Part shown: one piece after another, positions 33,188 to 50,314 of the stretch
Layout of the letters: every line of letters begins with the position of its first letter
How positions within the stretch are numbered: position 1 is the first letter of the stretch
DNA from: Sneathiella marina
GTDB lineage: Bacteria > Pseudomonadota > Alphaproteobacteria > Sneathiellales > Sneathiellaceae
Direction: 5' to 3'
NCBI RefSeq assembly: GCF_023746535.1
Contig: NZ_CP098747.1
Location: forward strand, 3,585,501-3,649,500
DNA length: 64,000 nucleotides
The notes under the pieces: generated by a model
The model's database searches: none
Told to the model about the DNA's origin: nothing
Seen by the model: only the letters and a program-made list of their open reading frames with translations
Position numbers and translations under genes: made by a program

Positions 33188-34624
33188 CTACTCTGCCCAG
33201 CCGCTAACGGATTTGACTTCCAGAAAATCTTCCAGTCCCCAAACACCGCCTTCGCGACCATTGCCGGATGCTTTCATGCCGCCGAACGGACTACCGGCAC
33301 CGCGAGACTGGCCATTCATTTCAACCATGCCCGAGCGAAGACGGTTTGCAACGCGGCTGCGTTTCTCGCCATCCTGGCTTTGAACATAGTTGGTAAGACC
33401 ATAGGGCGTATCATTGGCAATCTGGATAGCTTCTTCTTCCGTATCAAACGGGATGATGGAAAGCACAGGGCCAAAAATCTCTTCCCGGGCAATTGTCATG
33501 CTATTTGACACATCCGCAAAGACTGTCGGACGAACGAAATAACCGCGATTGAGGCCATCGGGACGTCCCGGTCCACCTGCGACAAGATTGGCGCCTTCTT
33601 CAATCCCTTTGTCAATCAGCCCCTGAATCTTGTTATATTGTAGTTCAGAGACAACAGGACCAATATGGCGTCCTTCCTTGGATGCGATATCGACCGCAAC
33701 ACTATCGGCAGCAGACGCAGCGGCTTTGACGGCATCATCATAGATTTCACGCTGTACCAGCATGCGTGTCGGGGCATTACAGGATTGGCCTGTGTTATTG
33801 AAGCAATGCATGGCGCCCCGCTTCGCGGCTTTCTCATCGGCATCAGCGAAAATGATATTCGCGCCCTTGCCACCCAGTTCCAGATGAACCCGTTTAAGCG
33901 TTTCCGCCGCGTTCTTCGAAATCGCAATTCCGGCGCGGGTCGATCCCGTAAAGGAAATCATGTCCACATCAGGGTGCGAGGATAGTTGCGAGCCAACACC
34001 AACGCCATCTCCATTTACCAGATTGAACACACCGGCGGGAGCGCCTGCCTTATCAATGATTTCAGCAAAGACATAAGAAGACAGCGGCGAGATTTCAGAC
34101 GGTTTCAAAATCATTGTGCACCCGGCAAGCAAGGCCGGGATGACTTTCAAGGTCACCTGGTTCATCGGCCAGTTCCAGGGTGTAATCAAACCGCAGACCC
34201 CTGCCGCTTCATAGATAATCCGGTCGTTCGGTGCATGTTCCCCGAGTTTGCGCTCAAATTCAAAACCCTTGGCTGTACGCAGGAAATTCTTGATATGGGC
34301 TCCGCCGGCACCCACTTGCTGTGTGGAGGACATATCAATGGGAGCGCCCATTTCCATGCTGATAGCCGCCGCCATATCCGCGGAACGCGCCATATATTCT
34401 TCAAGAATTCGCTCAACCAAAGCAATACGTTCTTCTTTCGAAGTAACAGACCAGGTTTCGAAAGCCGCTTTGGCTGCGGCTACAGCAGCATCCGTATCGG
34501 CCTGATCCCCGAGGGAGATGACGGCACATGGCTCTTCATTGGAGGGGTTAATGACATCAAAATCGTTCGCTTTGGCTGGCGATACCCACTGCCCATTGAT
34601 ATAAAATTCGCGTTTTTCAAGCAT
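33188..34624 (-). CDS. Aldehyde dehydrogenase, NAD(P)-dependent
   Basis: A 478-residue aldehyde dehydrogenase of the broad ALDH superfamily, oxidising an aldehyde to an acid. Seen: PWNWPMNQVTLKVIPALLAGCTMILKPSE (cofactor, near residues 145-173), SFTGSTRAG, the general base in LELGGKGANIIFAD, and the nucleophile in FNNTGQSCNAPTRM (near 280). Substrate not predictable; dimethyl-type and vanillin-type relatives share these features. It is divergent from the CoA ligase at 35040. It could feed the acid to that ligase, which is inference. Confidence 0.9.
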   Translation of the reverse strand: MLEKREFYINGQWVSPAKANDFDVINPSNEEPCAVISLGDQADTDAAVAAAKAAFETWSVTSKEERIALVERILEEYMARSADMAAAISMEMGAPIDMSSTQQVGAGGAHIKNFLRTAKGFEFERKLGEHAPNDRIIYEAAGVCGLITPWNWPMNQVTLKVIPALLAGCTMILKPSEISPLSSYVFAEIIDKAGAPAGVFNLVNGDGVGVGSQLSSHPDVDMISFTGSTRAGIAISKNAAETLKRVHLELGGKGANIIFADADEKAAKRGAMHCFNNTGQSCNAPTRMLVQREIYDDAVKAAASAADSVAVDIASKEGRHIGPVVSELQYNKIQGLIDKGIEEGANLVAGGPGRPDGLNRGYFVRPTVFADVSNSMTIAREEIFGPVLSIIPFDTEEEAIQIANDTPYGLTNYVQSQDGEKRSRVANRLRSGMVEMNGQSRGAGSPFGGMKASGNGREGGVWGLEDFLEVKSVSGWAE

Positions 34625-35039
34625 TCTTCAGACCTTGTATTATTTATGGCTGCCCGAACATGTCCAGGCAAAGGAATATTGTTATTAGTCGTCGAAAAGA
34701 CGCCTGCCCCGATGTTACTGCTATTTGCAGCCTGCGTCCACATCGCCGACAAGTCTGTGACTAGCTTATAATATCAAGCTAAAAAGTAAAAATTCAAGTC
34801 GCAAAATGACATGTAAACGCAATGCTTGCAAAAACGGAAAGCGCTCGCGTACTATTGAGGCATCAATAGTTGAAAATTCTTGTATAAACGACCTTCATTT
34901 TTCGTCATGCCGCCGCCGACGAACAGTCATTGTTTGGAAATATAATATTGCCCTGACAAGACTGCTGCCAGTAATAAACCATCCATATGCGTCTATTTCC
35001 AGCGCATGTGACGCCTGATTACGAGGAGAAAAGAAACCG
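34625..35039. other. Divergent intergenic region
   Basis: 415 bases between the aldehyde dehydrogenase and CoA ligase genes. A possible plus-strand promoter is TTGCAA (34826-34831), 18-base spacer, TACTAT (34850-34855). The ligase has a GAGGAG ribosome site upstream of its ATG. A 70-codon plus-strand frame here has unusual composition and no ribosome site; I do not call it. Nothing else was recognised. Confidence 0.4.
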
Positions 35040-36560
35040 ATGCCTGCAACCAGATCTCTCACAGAATTACTCGAGCAGGGCCGAGTTGACGCGCCTGCCA
35101 TTAGCGCACCGGATCGATCAGACTTAACCTATGGCGACCTTCAGAAGCTGGCCCGGAACACGGTCACGCGCCTGAATGAATTGGGTATAGGCCGGCAAGA
35201 CAGAGTAGCGATTGTGCTGCCGAACGGGCCGGAAATGGCAAGTGCTTTTATTACCATTGCTTGCGGCGCAACAACTGCGCCGTTAAATCCCGATTATAAA
35301 GCGGATGAATTTGAATTTTACCTGAAGGATTTATCCGCAAAGGCACTCGTTGTCCTCGACGGCAGTGATAGTGCCGCTGTTGCGGTTGCCAAAAAAATTG
35401 GGGTATCGATACTGGAACTTCATGTCCCGGAAGGAGCGGCTGCCGGAGAATTCGAGCTAAAGGGTTCGACGAGAGGAAGCACAAGAAATCCAGGTACGGC
35501 GGAACCAGAGGATATTGCGTTGATCCTTCACACGTCCGGGACAACGTCCAGACCAAAGATTGTCCCGCTCAGCCATATCAATGTCTGTGCCTCAGCCCGC
35601 AACATTGCAGAATCTCTCGATCTCGGCGCGGCAGACAAATGCCTGAACGTCATGCCCTTATTTCATATTCATGGGCTGATTGCTGCCGTTCTGTCTTCGC
35701 TCCATGCCGGTGCCAGTGTCAATTGCACCCCCGGTTTCAATGCGCTGAAATTCTTTGCACATATGGATGAGGCGGCCCCCAGCTGGTACACCGCAGTCCC
35801 GACCATGCATCAGGCTATCCTTGCCCGGGGTCCGCGCAACGCAGACTCTATCAAAAATGCTCATCTGCGGTTTACAAGATCGTCGTCCGCCTCTCTCCCG
35901 CCGCAAGTCATGAAATCCCTTGAGGAAATGTGGGGCTGCCCCGTGGTCGAAGCCTATGGCATGACGGAAGCCGCCCATCAAATGGCCGCCAATCCATTGC
36001 CGCCGGCGAAACGGGTACCGGGAAGTGTTGGCATCGCCTCCGGTCCTGAAGTCGGCATTATGTCGGAGGATGGCACTCTCCTCAATGCAGGTGAAACCGG
36101 CGAAATCGTCATTCGCGGTGACAATGTCACCAATGGGTATGAAAATAATCCATCGGCAAATGCGGAAGCCTATACAAATGGCTGGTTTCGAACAGGCGAT
36201 CAGGGGATTGTTACGGAAGAAGGATATATCTCCATCACCGGCCGCCTGAAAGAGATCATCAATCGCGGGGGAGAAAAAATCTCGCCCCGGGAAGTGGATG
36301 AAATATTGATGAACCACCCCGCCGTTGAGCAGGTGGTCACCTTCGCCATACCCCATGATAAACTGGGCGAGGACGTGGGGGCTGCTGTCGTTCTTCGGGA
36401 CGGTCAAGGGTCGACTGAAGCCGAGTTGAGGGACTTCGCGGCAAAAAGCCTCGCGGCCTTCAAGGTTCCACGGAAAATCAAATTGCTGGACGAAATCCCC
36501 AAAGGTGCAACGGGTAAATTACAGCGCATCGGCATGGCGGAAAAGCTGGGAATGATATAA
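35040..36560 (+). CDS. AMP-forming CoA ligase, oxalate-CoA ligase (Pcs60/AAE3)-like
   Basis: A 506-residue acyl-activating enzyme. Motifs: LHTSGTTSRPKIVPLSHIN (near residues 165-183), MPLFHIHGLIAAVLSSL, WYTAVPTMHQAIL, FTRSSSASLPPQV, EAYGMTEAAHQMAANPLPP, GWFRTGDQG, GRLKEIINRGGEKISPREVD, and AAFKVPRKIK with the late catalytic Lys in GATGKLQR. The FHIHG and AYGMTEAAHQM segments closely resemble oxalate-CoA ligases of yeast and plants. Its stop overlaps the start of the next gene (TAATG), so the two are coupled. Oxalate is the best guess, not proven. Confidence 0.85.
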   Translation: MPATRSLTELLEQGRVDAPAISAPDRSDLTYGDLQKLARNTVTRLNELGIGRQDRVAIVLPNGPEMASAFITIACGATTAPLNPDYKADEFEFYLKDLSAKALVVLDGSDSAAVAVAKKIGVSILELHVPEGAAAGEFELKGSTRGSTRNPGTAEPEDIALILHTSGTTSRPKIVPLSHINVCASARNIAESLDLGAADKCLNVMPLFHIHGLIAAVLSSLHAGASVNCTPGFNALKFFAHMDEAAPSWYTAVPTMHQAILARGPRNADSIKNAHLRFTRSSSASLPPQVMKSLEEMWGCPVVEAYGMTEAAHQMAANPLPPAKRVPGSVGIASGPEVGIMSEDGTLLNAGETGEIVIRGDNVTNGYENNPSANAEAYTNGWFRTGDQGIVTEEGYISITGRLKEIINRGGEKISPREVDEILMNHPAVEQVVTFAIPHDKLGEDVGAAVVLRDGQGSTEAELRDFAAKSLAAFKVPRKIKLLDEIPKGATGKLQRIGMAEKLGMI

Positions 36561-37567: not shown

Positions 37568-38512
37568 TTACGACTGATCATGCCCGTAGAATAATCCGAC
37601 CACATGCTGGGCTTCCGCAAAAAACAACCAGCGCTCAGTAACAATACCGGCGGAGGCGGAAATCGCGGCGATCCAGGTGATTATCGGCATAGGTGCCACA
37701 TTCATCAGGCCCGCCAGCAGGCAAAGAAACGGCACAAGGAAAGCCAGCAGCCCGGCGATTTTTCGCAATTTCAGCGCATGCCTTCTGGCGATTTGAAAGC
37801 CCATTTCCTTCATCACCCAGTTATCCTCGGTATGGGGGACTTCAAATTGTTTGACGGCACCCAAATGCCCAAGACCCGTTGCCGTGCCCGCATTGCTTGG
37901 CGATGTGGTTTGATCGATGGACGACCAATAAAAAAACTTGATCAGGGCGCTTATCAAAATCAGGATCAGGGCGGCGGTGACAACAAATTCATTGGCAATA
38001 CCAAAGCTCGACGTGAGGGCCGCCAGCCAAATCGCCCCGCTTGTCAGCCCAAGGGTGAGATATACCAGAGGGACGAGACGGTGATGCCATTGCCGAATTG
38101 TTCGTAAAGAGGCGTAAATCATCGCTGTCGAATAAATCGTGACAAGCGCCATAATTGCCGCGACAGCCCCCCAAAATGCCCAGCCGCCAATGGCATTGCC
38201 ATAGCTTACCCAGCCAAAGGCGAAGAGCAGCACCGGAGCATAGGTCAAAATTGCCGCAACACCCTCCCGCGACAGCCAGGAACTTCGCCATTGAGACAGG
38301 GCGCGCCACGCCCGTTCCGGATGATGAAGATGAAAGGTCGAGGACAGTAACCCGCCACTCACCAGGCCGAGAGCCAGAAGCAGCGTCACAGCGCCGAACC
38401 AGGGATCCGTCGGCAAATAACCAAGGGGAACCATAATGCCCAGCAGGACAAGGATACCGTAGCCGGCACCGGAGGCCGTTGTAAAAAAAATGACGGAGGC
38501 GGCGGGATGCAT
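37568..38512 (-). CDS. soeC: SoeC, membrane anchor of sulfite-oxidising molybdoenzyme
   Basis: A 314-residue integral membrane protein of the DmsC/NrfD-like anchor family with about eight helices. FHLHHPERAWRALSQWRSSWLSREG near residues 60-84 is characteristic. It passes electrons from sulfite to the quinone pool in the SoeABC complex, whose catalytic face is cytosolic. It begins four bases after soeB and ends the xsc-pta-soeABC operon. Its name rests on company with xsc; alone it could be the anchor of a DMSO- or polysulfide-reductase-type enzyme. Confidence 0.85.
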   Translation of the reverse strand: MHPAASVIFFTTASGAGYGILVLLGIMVPLGYLPTDPWFGAVTLLLALGLVSGGLLSSTFHLHHPERAWRALSQWRSSWLSREGVAAILTYAPVLLFAFGWVSYGNAIGGWAFWGAVAAIMALVTIYSTAMIYASLRTIRQWHHRLVPLVYLTLGLTSGAIWLAALTSSFGIANEFVVTAALILILISALIKFFYWSSIDQTTSPSNAGTATGLGHLGAVKQFEVPHTEDNWVMKEMGFQIARRHALKLRKIAGLLAFLVPFLCLLAGLMNVAPMPIITWIAAISASAGIVTERWLFFAEAQHVVGLFYGHDQS

Positions 38513-38516
38513 GGCG

Positions 38517-39251
38517 TTATCCTAATTTTTCGAGGGCGGCGTCGAGCCATCCGAGAAGGCTGCCCGCTTTCGGTGCTTTCCGGGTTGAACAGGGAGCATC
38601 CGGTTTTTGCTTGGGCCGCGGCGGCAGGTATTTATTGACCGGCTTTGTGCCCTGTTCGGGCATGAGATCCATACCACCACGGGCCAATACCAGAAGGCTG
38701 ACCTCCGAGTCCGGATCACTGAAATCGCCAAAATGCCGGGCTTTGGACGGGCAGCTGCGAACGCAGGCCGGTTCCCGGTCGATTTCGGGCAGGTTCTCGT
38801 TATAGATCCGGTCAACACAGAGCGTGCATTTCTTCATCACACCGGCATCGGCGTCCATTTCACGGGCGCCATAGGGGCAGCTCCAGGCACAGAGACCACA
38901 GCCGATACACCAGTCCTCATTGACCAGAACAATGCCATCTTCGGTGCGCTTGTAACTGGCACCGGTCGGGCAGACCGTGACACAGGGCGCGTCTTCACAA
39001 TGCAGGCAGGAGCGTGGGAAATGGACGATTTGCGCCGGTGCATCCGGCGGCGTTACCTCATAGGAATGCACCCGGTTGAGCCAGCTTCCCGTGGGCGATG
39101 CTCCGTAAGCGTCCTGATCAGACAACGGTGCGCCGTAGCCGCCGGTATTCCATTCCTTGCAATTGACAACGCAGGCCTGACAGCCGACACAGGTGTCCAG
39201 ATCGATGACGAGGCCCAATTTACGGTCGGTATGTTTAGGTAAGGTGGTCAT
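38517..39251 (-). CDS. soeB: SoeB, iron-sulfur subunit of sulfite-oxidising enzyme
   Basis: A 244-residue ferredoxin-type subunit with four cysteine clusters: CVGCQACVVNCKEWN (near residues 18-32), CLHCEDAPCVTVCPTGASY (82-100), CIGCGLCAWSCPYGARE (near 115-131) and CTLCVDRIYN...CVRSCPSKAR (near 139-172). They should hold four [4Fe-4S] centres linking SoeA to SoeC. The start overlaps the stop of soeA (ATGA). Cytosolic, no Tat signal, in keeping with SoeABC. Confidence 0.9.
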   Translation of the reverse strand: MTTLPKHTDRKLGLVIDLDTCVGCQACVVNCKEWNTGGYGAPLSDQDAYGASPTGSWLNRVHSYEVTPPDAPAQIVHFPRSCLHCEDAPCVTVCPTGASYKRTEDGIVLVNEDWCIGCGLCAWSCPYGAREMDADAGVMKKCTLCVDRIYNENLPEIDREPACVRSCPSKARHFGDFSDPDSEVSLLVLARGGMDLMPEQGTKPVNKYLPPRPKQKPDAPCSTRKAPKAGSLLGWLDAALEKLG

Positions 39252-42106
39252 TTAGTCCATTCCTTTCCATAAGCAACAGTATCCGGTCCAACACCCACGG
39301 GGGAGTCCTGCGGTTCGAACTCCGGTTCAGATTGCATCGTCCCGTCATCCTCCGCTTTTTCGATGCGAACCCGCAAATCGTACCAGGCGCCCTGCCCGGT
39401 GATCGGGTCGGAGTTGGACCAGCGCATGCCGTCGCCTTTGGCGGGCAGCAAATCGCTGATCAGATGGTTCAACAGAAAGCCTTTTGTCGTCTCCGGCGCA
39501 CCCGGCTTCAGCGCCCAGGCGCCTTTGCGTTTGCCGATGGCATTCCAGGTCCACAGGGTTTTCGAATTGACCGCATTCATCCGCTGCACCGGTACTTTTA
39601 TGCGTCCGTGATGGGAAATCACCCAGGCCCAGTCGCCGTCTTCAAGCCCTGCGTCATCGCAGACATTTCCCGGGACATAGAGCGGGTTGCGCCCATGGAT
39701 CTGACGGAGCCACGCATTCTGTGTTCCCCAGGAATGATACATGGCGGCAGGACGCTGCGTGATGGCGTGCAGCGGGAAATCGGCCAAGTCCCCCGATTGC
39801 TCCAGCCGGCTTCCTTCGCCGGGCGCATACCAGATCGGCAACGGATCGAAGGCCTCCAAAATCTGCTGCTGCAGATAGTCCGGCGGCACGCAAGCGCCAT
39901 GGCCTTCCGCCGCGCGCTGGAATTTTGACAAGGTCTCCAGATATAGCTGAAATGTCACGGGCTGCGGGGAATCATAGAACCCCATGGACACGGCCCACTC
40001 CTGATACCCGGCATTGGCATGTTTAAAAAACTGTGCGTCCTCGGGGATATGTTCGAGGAAAAATCCGCCATTTTCGATATAATCATCAAGCTGGTCAGGA
40101 TTGACATCACCGCGCCCGCGCGCCGATTTATCTTCGCCGCGAAAGCCGGCCAGCGGCCCGATACCGGGCTTGCGCTGATGATTGACAATATAGTCGGCAT
40201 AATCCGCATATTTGGCGCTGCCGTCGTCATTGACCATGCCGTCAAGACCGAGACGCGCGCCCAGCTCCAGTATGACGCTTTGAAAACCGCGCACATCCCG
40301 ATCCGGCTCGATCACCGGCCAGCGAATGGAGTCCGCCGCCGCTGTCGGCTCGCTGATGGGGCGGTCCAGCATGGAGATGCAATCATGCCGTTCCAGATAT
40401 GTCGTATCGGGCAGGATCAAGTCCGCAAAGGCGACCATTTCCGACGAATAGGCATCGGAATAAATGATCTTGGGAATAACATAGGATCCGTCCTCCTTCT
40501 TCTCGGACAGCATCTGCATCATGCCCTTGCTGTTCATGGAGGAATTCCAGGCCATATTGGCCATATACATAAACAAGACATCGATGGGGTATGGATCACC
40601 ATGATAGGCATTGGCGATCACCGTATGCATCAGGCCATGCACCGACATGGGATTTTCCCAGGAAAACGCCTTGTCGATCCGCTTCGGTGAACCATCCTCC
40701 TCGATCAGAAGATCTTCCGGCCCGCGCGGATAACCCAGATGCGGCCCGGCAAGGGGCTGGTTGGGGGCGAATTCCGCATTTGGCACTGGATGTGCCTCCA
40801 TCGGTTTTGGATAAGGCGGTTTAAACCTGAACCCGCCGGGGCATTCGATGGAGCCCAGCAGGATCTGCAACAGATGCAGCGCCCGGCATGTCTGAAAACC
40901 GTTGGAATGTGCGGATATTCCGCGCATGGCATGGAAGCTGACCGGCCGCCCGATCATTTTCTCATGACGCTCCCCGGTCATGTCCGTCCAGGGCTGATCG
41001 ATGGTGATCTCTTCTTCAAACGCGACACGTGCCAGCTCAGCCGCCAGACGCTCTGTTTGTTCCGCCGGAATGCCGGTCTGGGCAGCGGTCGCCGCCGGTG
41101 CATAGGACGGATCGGCGTATTTCGTCGCCAGCAGCTCAAAAACCGGGCGCGCCGTGCGGCCATCCTCAAGTGTCACCTCGCCTTTCAGCGCCGCATTGCG
41201 CCGTACCGTTTTCGCCGGCCCGAGTTTGTTGGTCTTGCGGTCCAGTGCCAGCGGATTTCCGTCGGCATCCCGGGCGAAAAGCCCGTGGTCGGCCGCGCCC
41301 TCATCGTCGATGACAAGCCACCCGGCATTGGTATAGCGCAGCAGGTAATCCAGATCCACCTGACTGGCGTTTAGCAATTCATGGATGATCGACAGAATGA
41401 ACAGACCATCCGTTCCCGGCGTCACCGGCACCCATTCATCGGCAATGGCATTATATCCCGTGCGTACCGGATTGACGCCGACGATTTTGGCGCCGCGTTC
41501 CTTCAATTTTGACATGCCCAGCTTTATGGGATTGGAATCATGATCTTCCGCCACCCCGAAAATCATGAACATTTTGGTCCGTTCCCAATCGGGCTGGCCA
41601 AATTCCCAAAAGGCGCCGCCCATGGTATAAATACCCGCCGCCGCCATATTGACCGAGCAGAAGCCGCCATGGGCCGCATAATTCGGTGTGCCAAACTGTT
41701 GCGCCCACCAGCTGGTCAGGGACTGGCTTTGATCCCGTCCGGTAAAAAACGCCAGCTTTTTTGGGTCATCCGCCCGCACGGGCGCCAACCATGAAACGGC
41801 CTTTTCAAAGGCTTCTTCCCAGGAAATCTCCTTGAACTTCCCCTCGCCCCGCTCCCCGACCCGCAACAAGGGCGCGCGCAGCCGCGAGGGCGCGTAATGC
41901 TGCATGATGCCGGCGGACCCCTTGGCACATAGCACGCCCCTATTCACCGGATGATCCCGGTTCCCCTCGATATACCGGACCTTGCCATCGCGCAAATGGA
42001 CATTTATCCCGCAGCGGCAGGCACACATATAACAAGTGGTCTTGCGAATTTCATCGGATACTTTCGGGGAGGTATCCACATTCGGTTGAGACGGTCCTGC
42101 GCTCAT
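39248..42106 (-). CDS. soeA: SoeA, molybdopterin subunit oxidising sulfite to sulfate
   Basis: A 952-residue molybdopterin-guanine-dinucleotide oxidoreductase of the DMSO reductase family. The N-terminal [4Fe-4S] motif CYMCACRCGINVH...GVLCAKG lies at residues 25-65. Cofactor segments follow (GGFCSVNMAAAG, WTDMTGERHEKMIGRPVSFHAM) and a C-terminal cofactor domain (LHAITQRPAAMYHSWGTQNAWLRQIHGRNPLYV near 805). No Tat signal, so cytosolic, as for SoeA of purple sulfur bacteria and roseobacters. It sits after xsc and pta, where it removes the sulfite they release. Confidence 0.88.
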   Translation of the reverse strand: MSAGPSQPNVDTSPKVSDEIRKTTCYMCACRCGINVHLRDGKVRYIEGNRDHPVNRGVLCAKGSAGIMQHYAPSRLRAPLLRVGERGEGKFKEISWEEAFEKAVSWLAPVRADDPKKLAFFTGRDQSQSLTSWWAQQFGTPNYAAHGGFCSVNMAAAGIYTMGGAFWEFGQPDWERTKMFMIFGVAEDHDSNPIKLGMSKLKERGAKIVGVNPVRTGYNAIADEWVPVTPGTDGLFILSIIHELLNASQVDLDYLLRYTNAGWLVIDDEGAADHGLFARDADGNPLALDRKTNKLGPAKTVRRNAALKGEVTLEDGRTARPVFELLATKYADPSYAPAATAAQTGIPAEQTERLAAELARVAFEEEITIDQPWTDMTGERHEKMIGRPVSFHAMRGISAHSNGFQTCRALHLLQILLGSIECPGGFRFKPPYPKPMEAHPVPNAEFAPNQPLAGPHLGYPRGPEDLLIEEDGSPKRIDKAFSWENPMSVHGLMHTVIANAYHGDPYPIDVLFMYMANMAWNSSMNSKGMMQMLSEKKEDGSYVIPKIIYSDAYSSEMVAFADLILPDTTYLERHDCISMLDRPISEPTAAADSIRWPVIEPDRDVRGFQSVILELGARLGLDGMVNDDGSAKYADYADYIVNHQRKPGIGPLAGFRGEDKSARGRGDVNPDQLDDYIENGGFFLEHIPEDAQFFKHANAGYQEWAVSMGFYDSPQPVTFQLYLETLSKFQRAAEGHGACVPPDYLQQQILEAFDPLPIWYAPGEGSRLEQSGDLADFPLHAITQRPAAMYHSWGTQNAWLRQIHGRNPLYVPGNVCDDAGLEDGDWAWVISHHGRIKVPVQRMNAVNSKTLWTWNAIGKRKGAWALKPGAPETTKGFLLNHLISDLLPAKGDGMRWSNSDPITGQGAWYDLRVRIEKAEDDGTMQSEPEFEPQDSPVGVGPDTVAYGKEWTK

Positions 42107-42140
42107 CGAGCAATCCTTTTCATTGGCGGGTACATATTAT

Positions 42141-43169
42141 TCATACTGCGTTTTGGGCCTGTAATACGGTTACGGCAATTATGCCGTAAACGGCATCGGC
42201 GTCACAGCCGCGGGACAGATCATTCGCCGGCTTGGCAAGCCCCTGCAAAACCGGGCCGATTGTTTTCGCCCGGCCAATGCGTTCGGCAATCTTGTAGCCG
42301 ATATTCCCGGAATTAAGGTCGGGAAACACAAACACATTTGCCGCCCCGGCAACATCTGATCCGGGCGCTTTCAGGGTGGCAATTTCAGGGACAAATGCCG
42401 CGTCAAACTGTATGGCAGGCTCGACGGATACTCCGGGGCGGCGCTGCTGCAAAAGAGCTGCGGCATTCTCGACTTTCGTCACATCCGGATGAACGGCGCT
42501 TCCCCGGGTCGAGAAGGACAGCATGGCTATTTTCGGATCATCCTGCAGAAGCGACTGGAGACTGTCGGCAGCCGCGGCGGCGATTTGCGCCAGTTCGTCC
42601 TCGTCAGGCGAAACGACAAGGCCGCAATCGGTAAATAAAACGGCTGTCTTAACGGGATGGAATTCCTCGCCCATGATCATCAGCGTAAAACTTGAAACCA
42701 TCGAATACCGCTGATCGACGCCAATGACCTGCAAGGCGGATCGAACCACATCTGCGGTCATGTGGCGCGCGCCGGCAACAGATCCATCAGCATCGCCAGA
42801 TCGCACCATCATGTTTGCAAAGTTCAGGCAATCGCGTACCGCTATTTCTGCGTCCGCGAGATTTAGCCCCTTATGCCGGCGCAAGTGAAGAAATTCCTCA
42901 GAATAGGAGGCGTGATGCGCCGATTGCGCCGGGTCGATAATGGTGATCTGATCATTGCTGTCCCCGGCTGCGCGGGCAAGGCCACGCACTTCATCGACGG
43001 GGCCAAGCAAGGTAATGGTGGCTATTTTTTCCTGCAGGGCCCGGACAGCGCCTGCCACAATTCTCGGATCCTGTCCCTCCGCCAGTACAATATGCTTCGG
43101 TGCCGATTTCGCACGGGCAATCAAATCGTCAAATTGTTTCACGGTTGAAGACGCCCCCCTTTCCATCAC
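42141..43169 (-). CDS. pta: Phosphate acetyltransferase
   Basis: A 342-residue phosphotransacetylase (PTA_PTB family) that converts the acetyl phosphate made by Xsc into acetyl-CoA. Typical segments are RSGDADGSVAGARHMTADVVRSALQVIG (near residues 118-145), MLSFSTRGSA, and FVFPDLNSGNIGYKIAERIG (near 282-301). The single-domain form lacks the DRTGG extension of E. coli Pta. Start uncertain: ATG 43166/GTG 43169, or a GTG about 11 codons later. It lies 86 bases after xsc, past a terminator-like hairpin, and 34 before soeA. Confidence 0.9.
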   Translation of the reverse strand: MMERGASSTVKQFDDLIARAKSAPKHIVLAEGQDPRIVAGAVRALQEKIATITLLGPVDEVRGLARAAGDSNDQITIIDPAQSAHHASYSEEFLHLRRHKGLNLADAEIAVRDCLNFANMMVRSGDADGSVAGARHMTADVVRSALQVIGVDQRYSMVSSFTLMIMGEEFHPVKTAVLFTDCGLVVSPDEDELAQIAAAAADSLQSLLQDDPKIAMLSFSTRGSAVHPDVTKVENAAALLQQRRPGVSVEPAIQFDAAFVPEIATLKAPGSDVAGAANVFVFPDLNSGNIGYKIAERIGRAKTIGPVLQGLAKPANDLSRGCDADAVYGIIAVTVLQAQNAV

Positions 43170-43215
43170 CGAACCTTAGACCCGTTGCCAGCAGACTGGC
43201 AAACGATAGATGCAA

Positions 43216-43247
43216 AATAAAGGGGCAGTCTTTGCCGCCCCTTTATT
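43216..43247 (-). terminator. Hairpin between xsc and pta
   Basis: An 11-bp perfect stem (43216-43226 with 43237-43247), ten-base loop, followed on the minus strand by TTTTGC. It follows the xsc stop by nine bases and probably ends part of the transcripts, so xsc would be made in excess over pta-soeABC. Confidence 0.6.
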
Positions 43248-43255
43248 CCCGTTGG

Positions 43256-45034
43256 TTATGCGCCTTTTTGAGGGCGCATGTCTTTGGCGTCAACACCCGC
43301 GACAGAAACAGGCGCCTTCATCGCATCGCGACGGAAAGGCTCTCCGAGTTCCTGATTGAGGATGACCTCGATAAAGGTTGTTACACCATCGTCTTGCGCT
43401 TTACACGCCGTCTGCAATGCCGAGGTCAGCTCGTCTTGCGTATGAACCGTGACCCCTTTTAATCCGCAGCCTTCTGCAACTTTGGCATAGCTTAAATGCG
43501 GGTCCAGCTCCGTGCCGACGAAATTGTCGTCATACCAGAGAATGGAATTTCGCTTCTCGGCGCCCCATTGGTAATTGCGGAAAATAACCATGGTAATCGC
43601 CGGCCATTCTTCACGGCCGATCGAGCTCATTTCATTCATTGAGATGCCAAAGGCGCCATCTCCGGCAAAGCCCACAACCGGCGTATCCGGACAGCCGATC
43701 TTGGCGCCGATGATGGATGGGAACCCGTATCCACAAGGTCCGAACAATCCAGGCGCCAGGTATTTGCGTCCCTTTTCGAAGGTTGGATAGGCATTTCCGA
43801 TGGCACAGTTATTTCCAATATCACTGGAGATAATGGCCTCTTTCGGCAAACCAGCCTGAATAGCACGCCAGGCTTGCCGCGGGGCCATTCTGTCCGCATC
43901 CCGGGCGCGGGAATCCGCGTTCCAGGTTGTGCCCGGATCATCATCTTCATGATCCATGCTCGACAATGTCTGCAGCCAGGCTGATTTTGTCTGGTGAATG
44001 ATCGATTTGCGCTGTTCCCGGTCTGCATCGCCCGCCGTATCGGACAGGCTGGCCAGCAACTGCTCGGCAACCATTTTGGCGTCACCGCAAATACCAACCG
44101 TGACTTTTTTTGTCAGGCCAATACGGTCTGAATTCATGTCCACCTGGATAATATCGGCATTTTCCGGCCAGTAATCGATACCGTAACCGGGAAGCGTCGA
44201 AAATGGATTAAGCCGGGTGCCCAATGCCAGAACCACGTCTGCCTGCTTGATCAGCTCCATGCCGGCTTTTGATCCGTTATAGCCCAGCGGACCCGCCGCC
44301 AGTGGATGGGAACCCGGAAAACTGTCATTATGCTGATAGCCACTGCAAACCGGTGCGTCCAGCCGTTCCGCCAATGCCTGGCATTCGGGGATGGCGCCGC
44401 CGATAACCACACCCGCACCGGAAAGAATAACCGGGAATTTAGCGTTGGAGAGCAACTCTGCCGCTTTTGCAATGGCATCGGCGCCGCCCGCTGGCCGCTC
44501 AAGGCGAACGATTTGCGGCAGCTCAATATCAATGACCTGCGTCCAGAAATCGCGCGGCACATTGATTTGTGCGGGCGCCGAGCCGCGAATGGCTTTCTCG
44601 ATAACCCGGTTGAGAACTTCCGCCATACGGGACGGATCCCGAACCTCTTCCTGATAGCAGACCATGTCCTTGAACAAGGCCATTTGCTCGACTTCCTGAA
44701 AGCCGCCCTGGCCGATTGTCTTGTTCGCCGCCTGCGGGGTGACCAGCAACATCGGTGTATGGTTCCAATAGGCGGTTTTGACCGGCGTCACAAAGCCGGT
44801 GATGCCGGGGCCATTTTGTGCAATGGCCATGGCCATTTTACCGGTTGACCGCGTGTAGCCGTCGCAGATCATGCCGGCATTGGTTTCATGGGCGCAATCC
44901 CAGAAGGTGATACCGGCCTGACCGAACAAGTCGGATATGGGCATCATGGCGGACCCGATAATACCGAAACCATGCTCGATGCCATGAAGTTGCAAAACCT
45001 TGATAAAGGCTTCTTCCGTTGTCATTTTCGTCAT
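43256..45034 (-). CDS. xsc: Xsc, sulfoacetaldehyde acetyltransferase
   Basis: A 592-residue thiamine diphosphate enzyme that turns sulfoacetaldehyde plus phosphate into acetyl phosphate and sulfite, the central desulfonation step for taurine, sulfopyruvate and related C2/C3 sulfonates. The N-terminus TTEEAFIKVLQLHGIEHGFG, then IIGSAMMPISDLFGQAG and ITFWDCAHETNAGMICDGYTR, matches Xsc rather than oxalyl-CoA decarboxylase or acetolactate synthase. Glu near residue 52 is the ThDP activator; VVGFAGDGAFGISMNEMSSIGREEWPAITMVIFRNYQWG near 457-495 is the ThDP/Mg site. First of the operon, ahead of pta and soeABC. Confidence 0.95.
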   Translation of the reverse strand: MTKMTTEEAFIKVLQLHGIEHGFGIIGSAMMPISDLFGQAGITFWDCAHETNAGMICDGYTRSTGKMAMAIAQNGPGITGFVTPVKTAYWNHTPMLLVTPQAANKTIGQGGFQEVEQMALFKDMVCYQEEVRDPSRMAEVLNRVIEKAIRGSAPAQINVPRDFWTQVIDIELPQIVRLERPAGGADAIAKAAELLSNAKFPVILSGAGVVIGGAIPECQALAERLDAPVCSGYQHNDSFPGSHPLAAGPLGYNGSKAGMELIKQADVVLALGTRLNPFSTLPGYGIDYWPENADIIQVDMNSDRIGLTKKVTVGICGDAKMVAEQLLASLSDTAGDADREQRKSIIHQTKSAWLQTLSSMDHEDDDPGTTWNADSRARDADRMAPRQAWRAIQAGLPKEAIISSDIGNNCAIGNAYPTFEKGRKYLAPGLFGPCGYGFPSIIGAKIGCPDTPVVGFAGDGAFGISMNEMSSIGREEWPAITMVIFRNYQWGAEKRNSILWYDDNFVGTELDPHLSYAKVAEGCGLKGVTVHTQDELTSALQTACKAQDDGVTTFIEVILNQELGEPFRRDAMKAPVSVAGVDAKDMRPQKGA

Positions 45035-45402
45035 TATACGTTCCTATCTATATTCCTGTGAAACGCCGAATTTTCCGCATCTCAACTCTAACCCAAAGCC
45101 TGCAACAGGCGCAATTTCCGACCGCCTGCATTTTCCTAACAAATGAAATATTGCGATAGGTCCAGAAACAAAGAAAGGCTAATACCACATTGCAGAATAA
45201 GGGACCGGGACAACAGCGGTCTACAGGGGCTTCGAAAGACAGGTATAGTCAATCCTGATCAATGCGATAGCTACAATCAATTTGTATAGCTGCAAGGAGA
45301 TCAACTAGATATGTGACGGTATCGTCATGGGAAGGTATCGCCTTCGCGGACATCCATCAAAATGGGGAAGGACTGACAGATGAGAGAGAGAAAGAGCAGT
45401 AA
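45035..45402. other. Divergent intergenic region upstream of xsc
   Basis: 368 bases between the divergent xsc operon and the small membrane protein at 45403; both promoters should lie here. It contains one copy of a degenerate direct repeat (45170-45202) and an imperfect palindrome AGCTACAA/TTGTATAGCT (45269-45291) that could be an operator. No convincing -10/-35 pair was found by eye. Confidence 0.4.
45170..45202. repeat. Degenerate direct repeat, copy 1
   Basis: 33 bases beginning AAAGAAAGGCTAA that match a second stretch 848 bases downstream at 27 of 33 positions by hand count, without gaps. It lies upstream of the gene at 45403, while copy 2 lies after that gene, so the pair brackets it. 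Confidence 0.6.
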
Positions 45403-45939
45403 ATGAAACCTGAACCCTCACTTCCCCAACGCGGAGCCCGGAACGGGACCGGCTATAAGCTCCTCTTTACTGGCGCTATTTGCACCCTCCTCATTTTGAT
45501 TACGCTGTTGATCGCCCCTCGATTGGCTGAGTATCGCTGGTATCGCGATATGACGGCATTGACCCCCTTCTATGATGTTGAGGTCACCTATGTCAACGTA
45601 ACAGAGAACGCCGTTACGCTGGGCGGAAACCTGACAAAACGGCGTTGCGTGTTCAATGAGCTTGTTGGCTACGTTTATGGTGATGACGGGATTCGCCACA
45701 GGGTTATGGTCGATTTTTCACCTGAGACCGAGCTGACGGGTGTATCGGGTAATCGCCCGCCTTCTGACACAGCGGAAGCCTGGGGTCCCTGGAGACTCAC
45801 GATTGATGAGGATCGTAATGTAACCCCGGTAGGTTGGGAGATCCTTGCCGGGCATGTTAATTGCCCCTCTTCGCCCACCGAGCAGACCAACCTGTTCGCA
45901 AAAGGCGACTTATTGGCAGAAGACGGCCGAAAATCATGA
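45403..45939 (+). CDS. Hypothetical single-helix membrane protein
   Basis: A 178-residue protein that I do not recognise. It has a basic N-terminus, one strong membrane helix (about residues 18-39), then a soluble domain with two cysteines (Cys86 and another near the C-terminus) that could form a disulfide if the domain is periplasmic. It is bracketed by degenerate repeats and directly followed, in frame, by a monooxygenase relic. No functional link with xsc on the other strand can be shown. Confidence 0.6.
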   Translation: MKPEPSLPQRGARNGTGYKLLFTGAICTLLILITLLIAPRLAEYRWYRDMTALTPFYDVEVTYVNVTENAVTLGGNLTKRRCVFNELVGYVYGDDGIRHRVMVDFSPETELTGVSGNRPPSDTAEAWGPWRLTIDEDRNVTPVGWEILAGHVNCPSSPTEQTNLFAKGDLLAEDGRKS

Positions 45940-46062
45940 TCTTCACCCGTGCATATGATGGCCGGGCCGGACCATAAAGACGGCAGTATCCGATATTTTG
46001 TTGATAAGGGCGGCACTAAAGAAAGGCTAACACCACTTTACGAAATGAGGAAAGGCGGATAA
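45940..46062 (+). pseudogene. Relic of a Baeyer-Villiger monooxygenase C-terminus
   Basis: A short open stretch without its own start reads DHKDGSIRYFVDKGGT before ending at TAA (46060-46062). The intact monooxygenase 1.6 kb downstream has GHEEGSIRYFVYNGGT near its C-terminus: 11 of 16 residues are identical, including seven in a row. It is too short to be a gene and looks like the remaining tail of a lost paralogue, or of a tandem duplication, left when the rest was deleted or replaced by the gene at 45403. Confidence 0.7.
46018..46050. repeat. Degenerate direct repeat, copy 2
   Basis: Second copy of the 33-base repeat, lying inside the monooxygenase relic. Copy 1 at 45170-45202 may therefore be another scrap of the same lost gene. 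Confidence 0.6.
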
Positions 46063-46171
46063 TCGCGGGTCTCCAACAGTTGCATTGTCGCAGGTTATGG
46101 TTTTTAATATCCCTAAGATGAGGTTCAGCCTCAGATTTTCCGGCGAGTAGAAGTCACTTAAGGAGCAATCC

Positions 46172-47851
46172 ATGACCATCGCAACTGAGACGCATTTCGA
46201 GGTTATCGTAATTGGTGCCGGTGTAGCCGGCATCTACCAGATGAAACGCCTGAAGGATATGGGCGTTAAGGCGACCGTTCTGGAAGCCTGCGGTGATCTT
46301 GGCGGCACCTGGTACAATAACCGCTATCCCGGAGCCCGGTTCGATTCTGAAAGCTATACTTATGGCTACTCCTTCTCGCAGGAGGTGTTGGACGAATGGC
46401 ACTGGAAAGAAAAATTCTCCCCCCAGTCGGAAAACCTGGACTATCTGAATTTTGTCGCGGACAAATTTGATCTTCGCCCCTACATGCAATTCAATTGCAA
46501 GGTGACAGCGGCCCATTTCGACGAAACGGACGATCTTTGGAAACTGACCCTGAACGATGGCCGTGCTCTTACATGCCGGTTTGTCATCATGGCGCTGGGC
46601 TTGCTGTCGACGCCGACCTTGCCGCGGATCGAGGGCATGAAGGACTTTAAAGGCCCGTCCTTTCACACCTTCCACTGGCCCCATGAACCCGTCGAGTTGA
46701 AGGATAAAAAAGTCGCGGTGATCGGGACCGGCGCGACGGCCATCCAGCTGATTGCGGAAATTGCCGATAAAGTCGGCGAGCTTAATGTCTTTCAGCGGCG
46801 TCCCAACTGGAGCGCCCCGCTCAATAACAGCCCGATCTCAGCGGCGGAAATGGACGATATTCGCGCCCGCTATGACGAAATTTTTGCCACCTGCGCCCGG
46901 ACACCCGGCAGTTTCGAGCATGAGCCGGACCGCCGCGGCTTCTATGAACTGTCCCGCGAAGAGCGGGTCAAGCTGTGGGACCGGCTGTATGACGAGCCCG
47001 GCTTTGGCATCTGGCTGGCAAATTTTCGCGAGATCTTTACCGACGAAAAGGCCAATGAGGAATTTTCCGAGTATATTGCCGATCGCATCCGCGGCCGCGT
47101 CAATGATCCGGTGACGGCGGAAAAGCTTATTCCCCGCGATCATGGATTTGGCATCCAGCGGGTGCCGTTGGAAACCCAGTATTTCGAGGCTTATAATCGC
47201 GATAACGTCCGTCTGATTGATATCAGTGAAACCCCCATTGACCGGGTGACGGAAACCGGTATCCGCACCAGTGCAGAGGATTTTGACGCCGATATCATTG
47301 TCTATGCAACCGGCTTCGATGCCATCACCGGGGCCTTTGATCATATCGATATCCGCGGCCTCGGCGGCGAAACGTTACGGGATAAATGGCGTGACGGCCC
47401 GTCGACATTCCTCGGGATCCTGATCCATGGCTTTCCCAATCTGCTGATGCCCACGGGTCCGCAAAGCGGCTCCGCCTCGACCAACTATCCGCGCGGGATC
47501 GAGAACGGCGTCAATTGGAGCACGGATCTGCTCGATTATAGCTGGCAACGGGGTTTTACCCGGCTTGAAGCAACCCAGGAGGCTGAAACCTCCTGGACCG
47601 AGACGGTGACGAAAATGTATGCGATTATGCTGATGCGAAAGGCGAAATCCTGGTTCACCGGATATAATTCAAATGTGGAAGGCCATGAAGAAGGCAGTAT
47701 CCGCTATTTCGTCTATAATGGCGGCACCCCCCGATATGTGGCCTCGATCAATGAAGTGGCGGGGAATGATTATGAGGGTATTAATTTCTCTGTGGCGGGG
47801 CACCCCGGACAGGACGGGGCTGCGGAACCGGACAGACATCTCGCCGGTTGA
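46172..47851 (+). CDS. Flavin-dependent monooxygenase, Baeyer-Villiger type
   Basis: A 559-residue class B flavoprotein monooxygenase that inserts oxygen next to a ketone, or oxidises a heteroatom, with FAD and NADPH. Seen: the FAD Rossmann VIVIGAGVAGIYQMKRL (residues 11-27), the Baeyer-Villiger fingerprint FKGPSFHTFHWP (near 158-169), the NADPH Rossmann VAVIGTGATAIQLI (near 180-193) and the late ATG motif IVYATGFDAITGAF. AAGGAG precedes the start. It stands alone and its substrate is unknown. A relic of a paralogue lies just upstream. Confidence 0.92.
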   Translation: MTIATETHFEVIVIGAGVAGIYQMKRLKDMGVKATVLEACGDLGGTWYNNRYPGARFDSESYTYGYSFSQEVLDEWHWKEKFSPQSENLDYLNFVADKFDLRPYMQFNCKVTAAHFDETDDLWKLTLNDGRALTCRFVIMALGLLSTPTLPRIEGMKDFKGPSFHTFHWPHEPVELKDKKVAVIGTGATAIQLIAEIADKVGELNVFQRRPNWSAPLNNSPISAAEMDDIRARYDEIFATCARTPGSFEHEPDRRGFYELSREERVKLWDRLYDEPGFGIWLANFREIFTDEKANEEFSEYIADRIRGRVNDPVTAEKLIPRDHGFGIQRVPLETQYFEAYNRDNVRLIDISETPIDRVTETGIRTSAEDFDADIIVYATGFDAITGAFDHIDIRGLGGETLRDKWRDGPSTFLGILIHGFPNLLMPTGPQSGSASTNYPRGIENGVNWSTDLLDYSWQRGFTRLEATQEAETSWTETVTKMYAIMLMRKAKSWFTGYNSNVEGHEEGSIRYFVYNGGTPRYVASINEVAGNDYEGINFSVAGHPGQDGAAEPDRHLAG

Positions 47852-47985
47852 TGGTCTGAAGGGCTCTCGGCAAACACATGAAATATTTGAATGGGTTTGG
47901 CCTGAAGCATGAAAACTATTCATGCTTTTAATCCGCGCCCATTGCCCCTATAACCAGCCCTAGCAAAGCTGATCAGAAAAGGCCG

Positions 47986-49224
47986 TTGACATTGGCGCCA
48001 CGCGAGAAAATAGTTGCCATCATCGGCGCCGGGCCCGCTGGCCTCATTGCCGCGCAGAAATTGAGCGGGATTGAAAATCTTCAACTTCATGTTTTTGACC
48101 AGAAGCCGTCCGTGGCGCGAAAATTCCTGATTGCCGGTCGTGGCGGCCTCAACCTGACCCATTCGGAACCACTGACGCACTTCACTGAAAAATATGCGGA
48201 GAATGCAGAACGGTTTTCTGCCTTCCTCAAACGGTTTTCGCCAGAGGATATGATGAATTGGGCTGCCGCCCTCGGTATCTCCGTGTTCAAAGGATCCAGT
48301 GGCCGGATATTTCCCGACGGCCTGAAAGCGACCCCCTTGCTCAGGGCCTGGTTAAAAGAGCTGGAGCGCGCGCAAGTGCAGTTTCATCTCAGACATCGCT
48401 GGTTGAAAACCGGGGACGACCAGACGCTTGTTTTCAGCACGCAGGACAATCCGGCCCTCGCATTCAAGGCTGATGCCATATTATACGCAATGGGCGGCGC
48501 CAGTTATCCGCATCTGGGGGCCATAGGTGACTGGATCGATCCGCTGCGATCCGCCGGCATAAACATCGCCCCGCTCAGCCCCAGCAATTGCGGCTTTCAA
48601 ACCGGCTGGAGTGATCATTTTATCAGCCGCTTCGAAGGAGCCCCGCTCAAGAATATCCGCCTGTCTCACGAGAATCGCCGCATCGCCGGGGATCTTGTGA
48701 TCACGAAAAGCGGGCTTGAAGGCGGCGCCCTCTACGCGTTGAGCAAACCGTTGCGCGAACAGTTGAGCCGCGGGTCCGTGCCGATCATCCTGCTGGATTT
48801 GAAACCTGAAATGGCTGCGCCCCAACTCGCAGGAGCCTTGTCGGCACCTCGGGGGAAAATATCCCTGTCCAACTTCCTCCGCAAGAAACTGAAATTCTCG
48901 CCAATTCAAACCGCACTGCTCCATGAATTCGCGGCGAAGGAAAAGATGACGGACCCTGAAAAACTGGGCAAAACCGTAAAGGCCCTACCCATACCACTGC
49001 AGGCCATCAACGGCATTGAGCGCGCCATTTCATCGGCCGGCGGGGTCAAGTTCAAGAACCTGAACAATCAGCTGATGATCAAAAACCTGCCGGGTCAGTT
49101 TGTCGCCGGGGAAATGCTCGATTGGGAGGCCCCGACCGGCGGCTACCTGTTGCAAGGATGCTTTGCCACGGGCGTTGTCGCCGCCGAGGGCATTGCCAGA
49201 TATCTGGATCCGGCCGGGCGGTAA
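47986..49224 (+). CDS. TIGR03862-type flavoprotein (HI0933/YhiN-like)
   Basis: A 412-residue NAD(P)/FAD-dependent flavoprotein. FAD site: IIGAGPAGLIAAQKLSG (residues 10-26) and KFLIAGRGGLNLTHSEPL (near 45-62). A later region LYAMGGASYPHLGAIGDWI and the C-terminal GEMLDWEAPTGGYLLQGCFATGVVAA close the FAD pocket. The HI0933/BaiN-like family includes reductases with few known substrates. TTG start (47986 or 47992) with AAAAGG upstream. It is convergent with comE. Confidence 0.85.
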   Translation: MTLAPREKIVAIIGAGPAGLIAAQKLSGIENLQLHVFDQKPSVARKFLIAGRGGLNLTHSEPLTHFTEKYAENAERFSAFLKRFSPEDMMNWAAALGISVFKGSSGRIFPDGLKATPLLRAWLKELERAQVQFHLRHRWLKTGDDQTLVFSTQDNPALAFKADAILYAMGGASYPHLGAIGDWIDPLRSAGINIAPLSPSNCGFQTGWSDHFISRFEGAPLKNIRLSHENRRIAGDLVITKSGLEGGALYALSKPLREQLSRGSVPIILLDLKPEMAAPQLAGALSAPRGKISLSNFLRKKLKFSPIQTALLHEFAAKEKMTDPEKLGKTVKALPIPLQAINGIERAISSAGGVKFKNLNNQLMIKNLPGQFVAGEMLDWEAPTGGYLLQGCFATGVVAAEGIARYLDPAGR

Positions 49225-49250
49225 CAGCAGGTGCCAGGCCGGGTCCGCCC

Positions 49251-49814
49251 TCAGCCGTTGCGTTTCTCGATTTCCGTCATGAACCGGGCGCGAATAACCA
49301 CCGGGTCCATGGTAATGACCGGCACCTTGATATTGCCGGACTCGCATTTACAGACGATGATCGTCATCTTGTCGCCTTCAATTGCGCGGCGCAATGCCTC
49401 CGCCGTGTCCTCAGCCGCACATTCAATGACATTTTCGCAGCCACAAGCCGTCGCCACCGCTGCCAGGGACGTTTTCTTGCCGGCATAGGTTGGCTGATCC
49501 CCGGTTGAGCCATAACTGCCATTATCAATGATCAGCAGAATGAAATTATCTGCCACATTATTGGCGATGGTCGGCAAGGTGCCGAAATTGGTGAGCACCG
49601 AGCCATCCCCATCGATGGAAATGACCTTCTTATTCTGCGCCAGCGCCACACCGAGACCGATGGAGGACGACAACCCCATGGTCCCGAGCATATAGAAGGT
49701 GCTCGGCTGGTCATCAATCATATGCAGTTCCTGGCTTGGCAGGCCAATATTACAGACCACCAGCTGATCGGCAATAATCGGCGCGATCTCCCGTAAAACA
49801 TCTGAGCGGATCAT
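49251..49814 (-). CDS. comE: ComE, sulfopyruvate decarboxylase beta subunit
   Basis: A 187-residue subunit carrying the thiamine diphosphate/Mg2+ half of the two-part enzyme that decarboxylates 3-sulfopyruvate to sulfoacetaldehyde. Seen: YMLGTMGLSSSIGLGVALAQ (near residues 42-61), the ThDP motif VISIDGDGSVLTNFGTL (GDG...N, near 64-80), and IIDNGSYGSTGDQPTYAGK (near 95-113). The start at 49814 lies two bases after the comD stop (TGAGAATG). It supplies the substrate of Xsc encoded 4 kb away. Confidence 0.9.
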   Translation of the reverse strand: MIRSDVLREIAPIIADQLVVCNIGLPSQELHMIDDQPSTFYMLGTMGLSSSIGLGVALAQNKKVISIDGDGSVLTNFGTLPTIANNVADNFILLIIDNGSYGSTGDQPTYAGKKTSLAAVATACGCENVIECAAEDTAEALRRAIEGDKMTIIVCKCESGNIKVPVITMDPVVIRARFMTEIEKRNG

Positions 49815-49816
49815 TC

Positions 49817-50314
49817 TCAATACCCCTTCCAAAAAGACGCGTCGGTCAGCACCGCGACGGGTTTGTTGCACATATATGTATGTTTCAAGATGGCATCCAG
49901 TTCCGTCACATCCTCTTCCTTGTGAAAATGATAAGTCGGGATATGAAGCTGCGCGAGCAGGGCCTTTGTATGAACCGCCATTTCCACCTGACAGGCCACG
50001 GGCTCCCCCAGTTCCCCGCGGTAACTGATGATCATCGGCAAGGGCAAACGATAGAATTGCGTCAAGGTCACCAGGGTATTGATGGTTACGCCGATGGCCG
50101 TATTCTGCATGATGATGGCCGACCGCTTGCCGCCCATATAAGCCCCGGCGCAAAGGCCAATCCCCTCATCTTCCTTATTCGACGGCACATGGTGAATATC
50201 CGGGCTGTTCTCGATTTTATCAATGACGCCGGCCAATTGCTTGCACGGAACCGTGGTCACGAATTCAACGTTATTCGCTACAAGATCACTGAGTATTTTA
50301 TCATCTACGGACAC
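49817..50314 (-). CDS. comD: ComD, sulfopyruvate decarboxylase alpha subunit
   Basis: A 165-residue partner of ComE carrying the substrate/pyrimidine-binding half of the ThDP fold. Seen: VTTVPCKQLAGVIDKIENS (near residues 18-36), VPSNKEDEGIGLCAGAYMGGKRSAIIMQNTAIGVTIN (near 42-78, containing the activating Glu) and PMIISYRGELGEP. A GTG start at 50314 is chosen because AGGAGG lies five bases upstream and the length then matches archaeal ComD. It is probably co-transcribed with comE. Confidence 0.9.
   Translation of the reverse strand: MSVDDKILSDLVANNVEFVTTVPCKQLAGVIDKIENSPDIHHVPSNKEDEGIGLCAGAYMGGKRSAIIMQNTAIGVTINTLVTLTQFYRLPLPMIISYRGELGEPVACQVEMAVHTKALLAQLHIPTYHFHKEEDVTELDAILKHTYMCNKPVAVLTDASFWKGY

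Follow-up and report, generated by a model that had tools for sequence, protein, structure and literature searches.

The 64,000-nt window of the Sneathiella marina genome analysed here (G000:C1:3585501-3649500 of a single-contig, 4.07-Mb genome) contains two loci, xsc-pta-soeABC and comDE, that likely encode the lower half of a known pathway for three-carbon (C3) sulfonates, compounds described as important marine sulfur currencies in excerpts of PMC11382572 and PMC11131964. In the reading that we favour and consider likely, both loci would have been transferred into this genome, comDE would be the remnant of a larger operon, and soeABC would have taken the place of the native sulfite dehydrogenase, whose soeC is retained. 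The chemistry of the pathway is known; the new details are the solitary comDE and the apparently replaced sulfite dehydrogenase.

Genes of the lower pathway and their arrangement

The seven genes are all open and all on the minus strand. The closely spaced genes of xsc-pta-soeABC span window positions 37568-45034, and comDE spans 49251-50314:

37568..38512, minus strand: soeC, membrane anchor (314 residues; Pfam DmsC; eight hydrophobic segments by hydropathy)
38517..39251, minus strand: soeB, iron-sulfur subunit (244 residues; Pfam Fer4_11 and others)
39248..42106, minus strand: soeA, molybdopterin/4Fe-4S subunit of sulfite dehydrogenase (952 residues; Pfam Molybdopterin and Molybdop_Fe4S4)
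42141..43169, minus strand: pta, phosphate acetyltransferase (342 residues; TIGR00651, 318.3 against a cut-off of 311.2; PRK09653, 353 against 310)
43256..45034, minus strand: xsc, sulfoacetaldehyde acetyltransferase (592 residues; TIGR03457, 961 bits against a cut-off of 676)
49251..49814, minus strand: comE, sulfopyruvate decarboxylase beta subunit (TIGR03846, 236.2 against 221.5)
49817..50314, minus strand: comD, sulfopyruvate decarboxylase alpha subunit (TIGR03845, 152.4 against 147.95, a narrow pass)

Sequence comparison confirms all seven as real and correctly named genes. Xsc contains the GDG-x-N thiamine diphosphate motif and is 85% identical to its counterpart in genome G024, 82% to that of Azospirillum and 81% to that of a relative within the genus (G021), while the GDG-x-N cofactor motif of ComE is intact. 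The comD reading frame extends upstream to 50416, and the family match agrees with a GTG start at 50314. SoeABC reaches no NCBIfam cut-off and was identified from Pfam domains, gene order and a tree. Specifically, a molybdenum/iron-sulfur, an iron-sulfur and a DmsC-type subunit are encoded together, SoeB has three cysteine clusters by pattern match, and SoeA, with no RR within its first 45 residues, lacks a twin-arginine signal, as expected of a cytoplasmic subunit. In a tree of 81 close ComE relatives, built without an outgroup and with the stop codon of L050 treated as X, the window ComDE groups with the ComDE of sulfolactate and dihydroxypropanesulfonate (DHPS) loci. The promoter scan of the xsc strand was unusable, its top match overlapping the start codon of xsc.

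ComDE would decarboxylate sulfopyruvate to sulfoacetaldehyde, Xsc would convert sulfoacetaldehyde to acetyl phosphate and sulfite, and Pta would convert acetyl phosphate to acetyl-CoA. SoeABC would then oxidise sulfite to sulfate at the cytoplasmic face of the membrane, feeding the electrons to the respiratory chain. This is the route that the initial annotation had read from the two loci, and the family models support it. Excerpts of PMC11382572 describe a route through SlcC/ComC/SlcD, ComDE and Xsc, and excerpts of PMC6335251 describe SoeABC as a sulfite-oxidising complex of the cytoplasm that was first reported in Ruegeria pomeroyi.

The initial annotation had pointed to the division into two loci; the comparison of comE loci shows that this is no peculiarity. 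We compared 80 named comE loci, the best 80 of 451 confirmed ComE relatives, and counted matches at an identity of at least 40% (60% for Xsc), ignoring weaker ones. All 47 loci with full flanks (at least 9.5 kb on each side) carry hpsN, a TctC transporter gene or a flavin oxidase gene, and none carries Xsc; in the 33 shorter loci, one of the three is present in 26 and Xsc again in none. A 31% Xsc match in L067 lies below the counting threshold, and on one plasmid outside the set about 10 kb separate xsc and comDE. In 24 comDE-bearing genomes picked from the 80 loci, SoeA is present in 23; for 10 of the 24 SoeA genes found, that of Roseovarius nubinhibens included, the upstream 1.5 kb contains xsc or pta. 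As comDE goes with upper-pathway genes and xsc often with pta and soeA, the two behave as separate modules, and the window suggests that they can be joined by transfer. The split itself is thus the norm; the oddity of the window is a solitary comDE, a state seen in none of the 47 full-flank loci, unusually close (4.2 kb) to xsc.

Among 40 genomes, 24 of them from the genus (S. marina, G000, included; several genus genomes are incomplete), ComE was found in two and Xsc in four, and within the genus both occur in the same two, S. marina and G021. In G021, comDE (L002 in the locus set) lies inside an hps operon for DHPS, while xsc, on a different contig, neighbours pta and a GMC dehydrogenase gene; together with genes named by eye as encoding a TRAP transporter and an exporter of the TauE type, these resemble an operon for isethionate. 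The window comDE is 86% identical to that of G021 and is its sister in the tree (support 97/82, the bootstrap being rough); the two group with two Sedimentitalea loci, and hpsN lies near comDE in all three relatives. By these placements, the window comDE probably derives from a DHPS-type operon that has lost its upper genes. Horizontal transfer is the probable origin of both loci.

The source of sulfopyruvate

The window was annotated as lacking a sulfopyruvate-making gene, a sulfonate importer and a TauR-type regulator. Reference HpsN, TctA/TctC, DHPS TRAP subunits, SlcD candidates and the comDE-linked LysR have no match in it at E 0.001, and no tauR was found beside the xsc operon on reading the open reading frames (ORFs). 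Sulfolactate, cysteate and DHPS had all been left open as entry substrates, and the genome-wide searches narrow this choice. HpsN has a single match, of 34% identity, that is most simply an ordinary HisD (hpsO/P and gabD-2 were not searched), and DHPS through HpsN is therefore unlikely; an HpsN-free DHPS route through HpsO/HpsP with GabD-2 is named in excerpts of PMC11131964.

A flavin-dependent alpha-hydroxy-acid oxidase gene comes after comE in 52 of the 80 comE loci (L010 and L047 among them), and from this operon position its product is probably a sulfolactate oxidase, the likelier SlcD. A search of the genome for it at E 0.001, without its own positive control (this query, or its homologue from R. 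nubinhibens, hits 52 of the 80 loci, one of them with both), gave no match, and sulfolactate through this oxidase is therefore unlikely as well. A GlcD-type FAD (flavin adenine dinucleotide) protein encoded near comDE in R. nubinhibens (L047 6925-8349) had at first been taken as SlcD, for which the flavin oxidase is now the likelier candidate; its best match in S. marina (41%, L086) lies beside a gene named by eye as threonylcarbamoyl-AMP synthase, with no sulfonate genes. A second ComDE-like pair (L001 7833-8967), near an MttB-like methyltransferase gene, was rejected for scores below the cut-offs (109 against 148 and 127 against 221.5).

With DHPS through HpsN and sulfolactate through the flavin oxidase set aside, cysteate and sulfolactate through the ComC family are the annotated options that stay viable. 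Most likely, sulfopyruvate would be supplied from cysteate by a general transaminase, for which to our knowledge no dedicated gene is required, or from sulfolactate by a ComC-family (Ldh_2) dehydrogenase. The one close ComC-family match in the genome (G000:C1:3301569-3302573) lies about 0.32 Mb from the window soeC and is 58% identical to a gene near the G021 comDE, the next match having 28% identity; it is an unproven candidate for sulfolactate entry.

That sulfolactate in particular is the substrate, oxidised by this Ldh_2 enzyme, is possible but tentative. Besides its likeness to the gene close to the G021 comDE, it adjoins genes for DUF3726, a 544-residue protein without a recognised family and an M19 dipeptidase (L107 16567-19853, L108 15-1004), homologues of which occur within 10 kb of comE in two of the 80 loci, L002 of G021 and L029 of a member of the Geminicoccaceae. 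However, the L029 set has no Ldh_2 match, and the candidate scores 171.4 bits against a cut-off of 500 for the sulfolactate dehydrogenase model NF040650. Among solved structures it scores highest against a piperideine-carboxylate reductase (162 bits), ahead of sulfolactate dehydrogenase 2x06 (120 bits), and genome G019 has an orthologue (73%), with neither ComE nor Xsc found there. Locus L108 of S. marina also carries genes of the beta-hydroxyaspartate cycle (L108 2068-6385), with BhcA, BhcB and BhcD above curated cut-offs and BhcC slightly under (647 against 690), and a carnitine 3-dehydrogenase gene (L108 9694-11169).

It is unlikely, though still to be weighed, that the two loci serve separate ends, xsc-pta-soeABC acting on two-carbon (C2) sulfonates (taurine, isethionate or sulfoacetate) and comDE being a non-functional left-over or acting on another 2-oxoacid. 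The missing HpsN and flavin oxidase matches would fit this, as would the absence of any full-flank comE locus without upper genes, the isethionate-looking surroundings of the G021 xsc, and an Azospirillum locus in which soeABC and xsc accompany sulfoacetate-looking genes whose function we infer. On the other side, comDE is open, with the cofactor motif of ComE intact and 86% identity to the G021 genes, and two independent insertions within 4.2 kb of each other in 4.07 Mb would have a chance of about 0.2% by a simple estimate. As for genes of the C2 substrates, the best genome-wide TauA match has 24% identity (the searches did not cover taurine dehydrogenase or taurine transaminase), and the best IseJ match is a GMC-type protein of 51% identity with no matches to the G021 TRAP subunits around it. 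For sulfoacetate, an acyl-CoA ligase and an aldehyde dehydrogenase gene adjoining the operon (33188-36560) were considered and rejected: among the 25 best families listed for each, no specific one exceeds its cut-off, and nothing in the window matches the aldehyde dehydrogenase of Azospirillum. In the pathway that we favour, which joins the two loci, the locus suggests that a lower pathway can exist where no upper gene is recognised, leaving the entry step as a well-defined gap that experiments could address.

Sulfite dehydrogenase of the genus and of the window

SoeA was found in 11 of the 24 genus genomes and is thus not tied to Xsc in the genus. In four of four relatives read (G022, G003, G016 and G021), the native genes follow the order sigma-soeA-soeB-soeC-DEAD (flanked by a sigma-factor-like and a DEAD-box gene) beside RebB-like genes. 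S. marina has kept the flanks of this site and, after the sigma-like gene, an open soeC (1839575-1840543; L115 1576-2544) that is 63% identical to that of G021; soeA and soeB are absent from the site, and no remnants of them were found there. At E 1e-100 the genome has a single SoeA, the window copy.

The window SoeA is 60-64% identical to the genus type and 66-70% identical to roseobacter/Paracoccaceae proteins. In a tree of 38 rows (genus matches from G001 and G013, which have no locus, were left out, and R. pomeroyi is absent), it belongs to a set of 19 rows (100/100) that otherwise consists of 17 Roseobacteraceae/Paracoccaceae rows, xsc-linked roseobacter SoeA included, and a single further alphaproteobacterium, while eight genus rows form a separate 100/100 set. 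Forcing the window and genus SoeA together costs 152 log units (p of the approximately unbiased test, 8e-52), in a test devised after the tree had been seen. This placement, together with a native-type site that has soeC and lacks soeA and soeB, identifies the window soeABC as a foreign lineage. The initial annotation, made from the window alone, could see neither this lineage nor the loss of native soeA and soeB, both of which emerge from the genome and tree comparisons. It is very improbable that the window genes are the native set moved next to xsc, as a genome with a single SoeA might suggest, since the SoeA tree and the constrained test contradict it and the native-type SoeC, which shares no more than 48% identity with that of the window, is still encoded at its usual place.

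Taken by sequence comparison, a roseobacter-type soeABC was probably acquired and replaced the native sulfite dehydrogenase, and a sulfonate operon may thus replace a core sulfite-oxidising enzyme. The loss of native soeA and soeB would have followed the gain of the operon. A further step, which we regard as rather doubtful, is that the operon took over as the sole sulfite dehydrogenase, that its arrival caused the native loss, that the orphan SoeC serves as a second anchor for the foreign SoeAB, and that sulfite oxidation is now tied to the sulfonate operon. Searches of the open-licence PMC literature turned up no title or abstract on a sulfonate operon replacing native soeABC, which is weak evidence of absence.

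Several observations weigh against the reconstruction as a whole. SoeA is undetected in 13 of the 24 genus genomes, several of them incomplete, so native soeAB loss may be common, and it may be unconnected with the arrival of the operon. The nearest relatives of Xsc are non-roseobacter proteins (79-85%, as against 67-71% for roseobacter fragments), whereas SoeA is of roseobacter type; with different nearest lineages for the two, the operon may be a mosaic. Third-position G+C content speaks clearly neither for nor against transfer: it is high across the module, with soeA and comE narrowly exceeding the 95th percentile (rank 111 of 115 own ORFs) and the other five genes below it. Finally, as no sulfopyruvate-making gene has been established, flux through ComDE is unproven, and the shortfalls of the Ldh_2 candidate described above count here too.

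Two features of the native site stand apart. The row of small RebB-like (killing trait) genes at G000:C1:1835728-1838442 (L133/L115) adjoins the sigma-like gene near the orphan soeC, and four relatives have homologues at the corresponding position; one member was confirmed as PF11747. Between the sigma-like gene and native soeA, inspection by eye showed conservation over a stretch that includes a short inverted repeat (L129-L132); an Rfam search of L129 and L132 gave nothing above the gathering score.

Neighbouring genes and comparison with known systems

The initial annotation had placed the loci about 4 kb apart with unrelated oxidases between them. The distance from xsc to comE is 4,216 bp, and the gap holds two flavoprotein genes and one further ORF, none with an evident tie to sulfonates by sequence:

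45403..45939, plus strand: 178-residue ORF, family not recognised (no NCBIfam or Pfam match; outside the pathway on present evidence)
46172..47851, plus strand: flavin-dependent monooxygenase, bystander (Pfam FMO-like, Pyr_redox_3)
47986..49224, plus strand: TIGR03862 flavoprotein, bystander (474.5 against 242.65 bits; convergent with comE across a 26-bp gap)

In known DHPS operons, the order is hpsKLM-hpsN-hpsOP-(usp)-comDE-(flavin oxidase). The window comDE belongs to the four-row set with the G021 and Sedimentitalea operons, yet it stands alone, with no match nearby for the upper genes or the transporter. Compared with the sulfolactate locus of R. nubinhibens ISM (comDE, TctC, TctA and flavin oxidase; L047), ComE is 82% and ComD 78% identical, whereas the TctC, TctA, flavin oxidase and LysR of that locus are unmatched in the window. 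The native soeABC of the genus is the same type of enzyme as the window set, but its SoeA (60-64% identical) forms a distinct clade and its site is without xsc in the four genomes read; in S. marina, soeA and soeB are missing from that site.

The closest parallel for the operon is found in R. pomeroyi DSS-3, in which we take SPO3561 to be xsc. Excerpts of PMC4334477 list soeC, soeB, soeA and pta as SPO3557-3560 and tauR as SPO3562, and according to excerpts of PMC10675870 many Roseobacter species of the RCA cluster have hpsN, comDE and soeABC. In contrast to R. pomeroyi, where tauR lies beside the operon, none was found next to it here on reading the ORFs, and the window Xsc resembles non-roseobacter proteins more closely than it does the available roseobacter fragments. 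The window xsc-pta-soeABC nevertheless has the same gene order and content as SPO3557-3561, and its SoeA falls in the roseobacter group.

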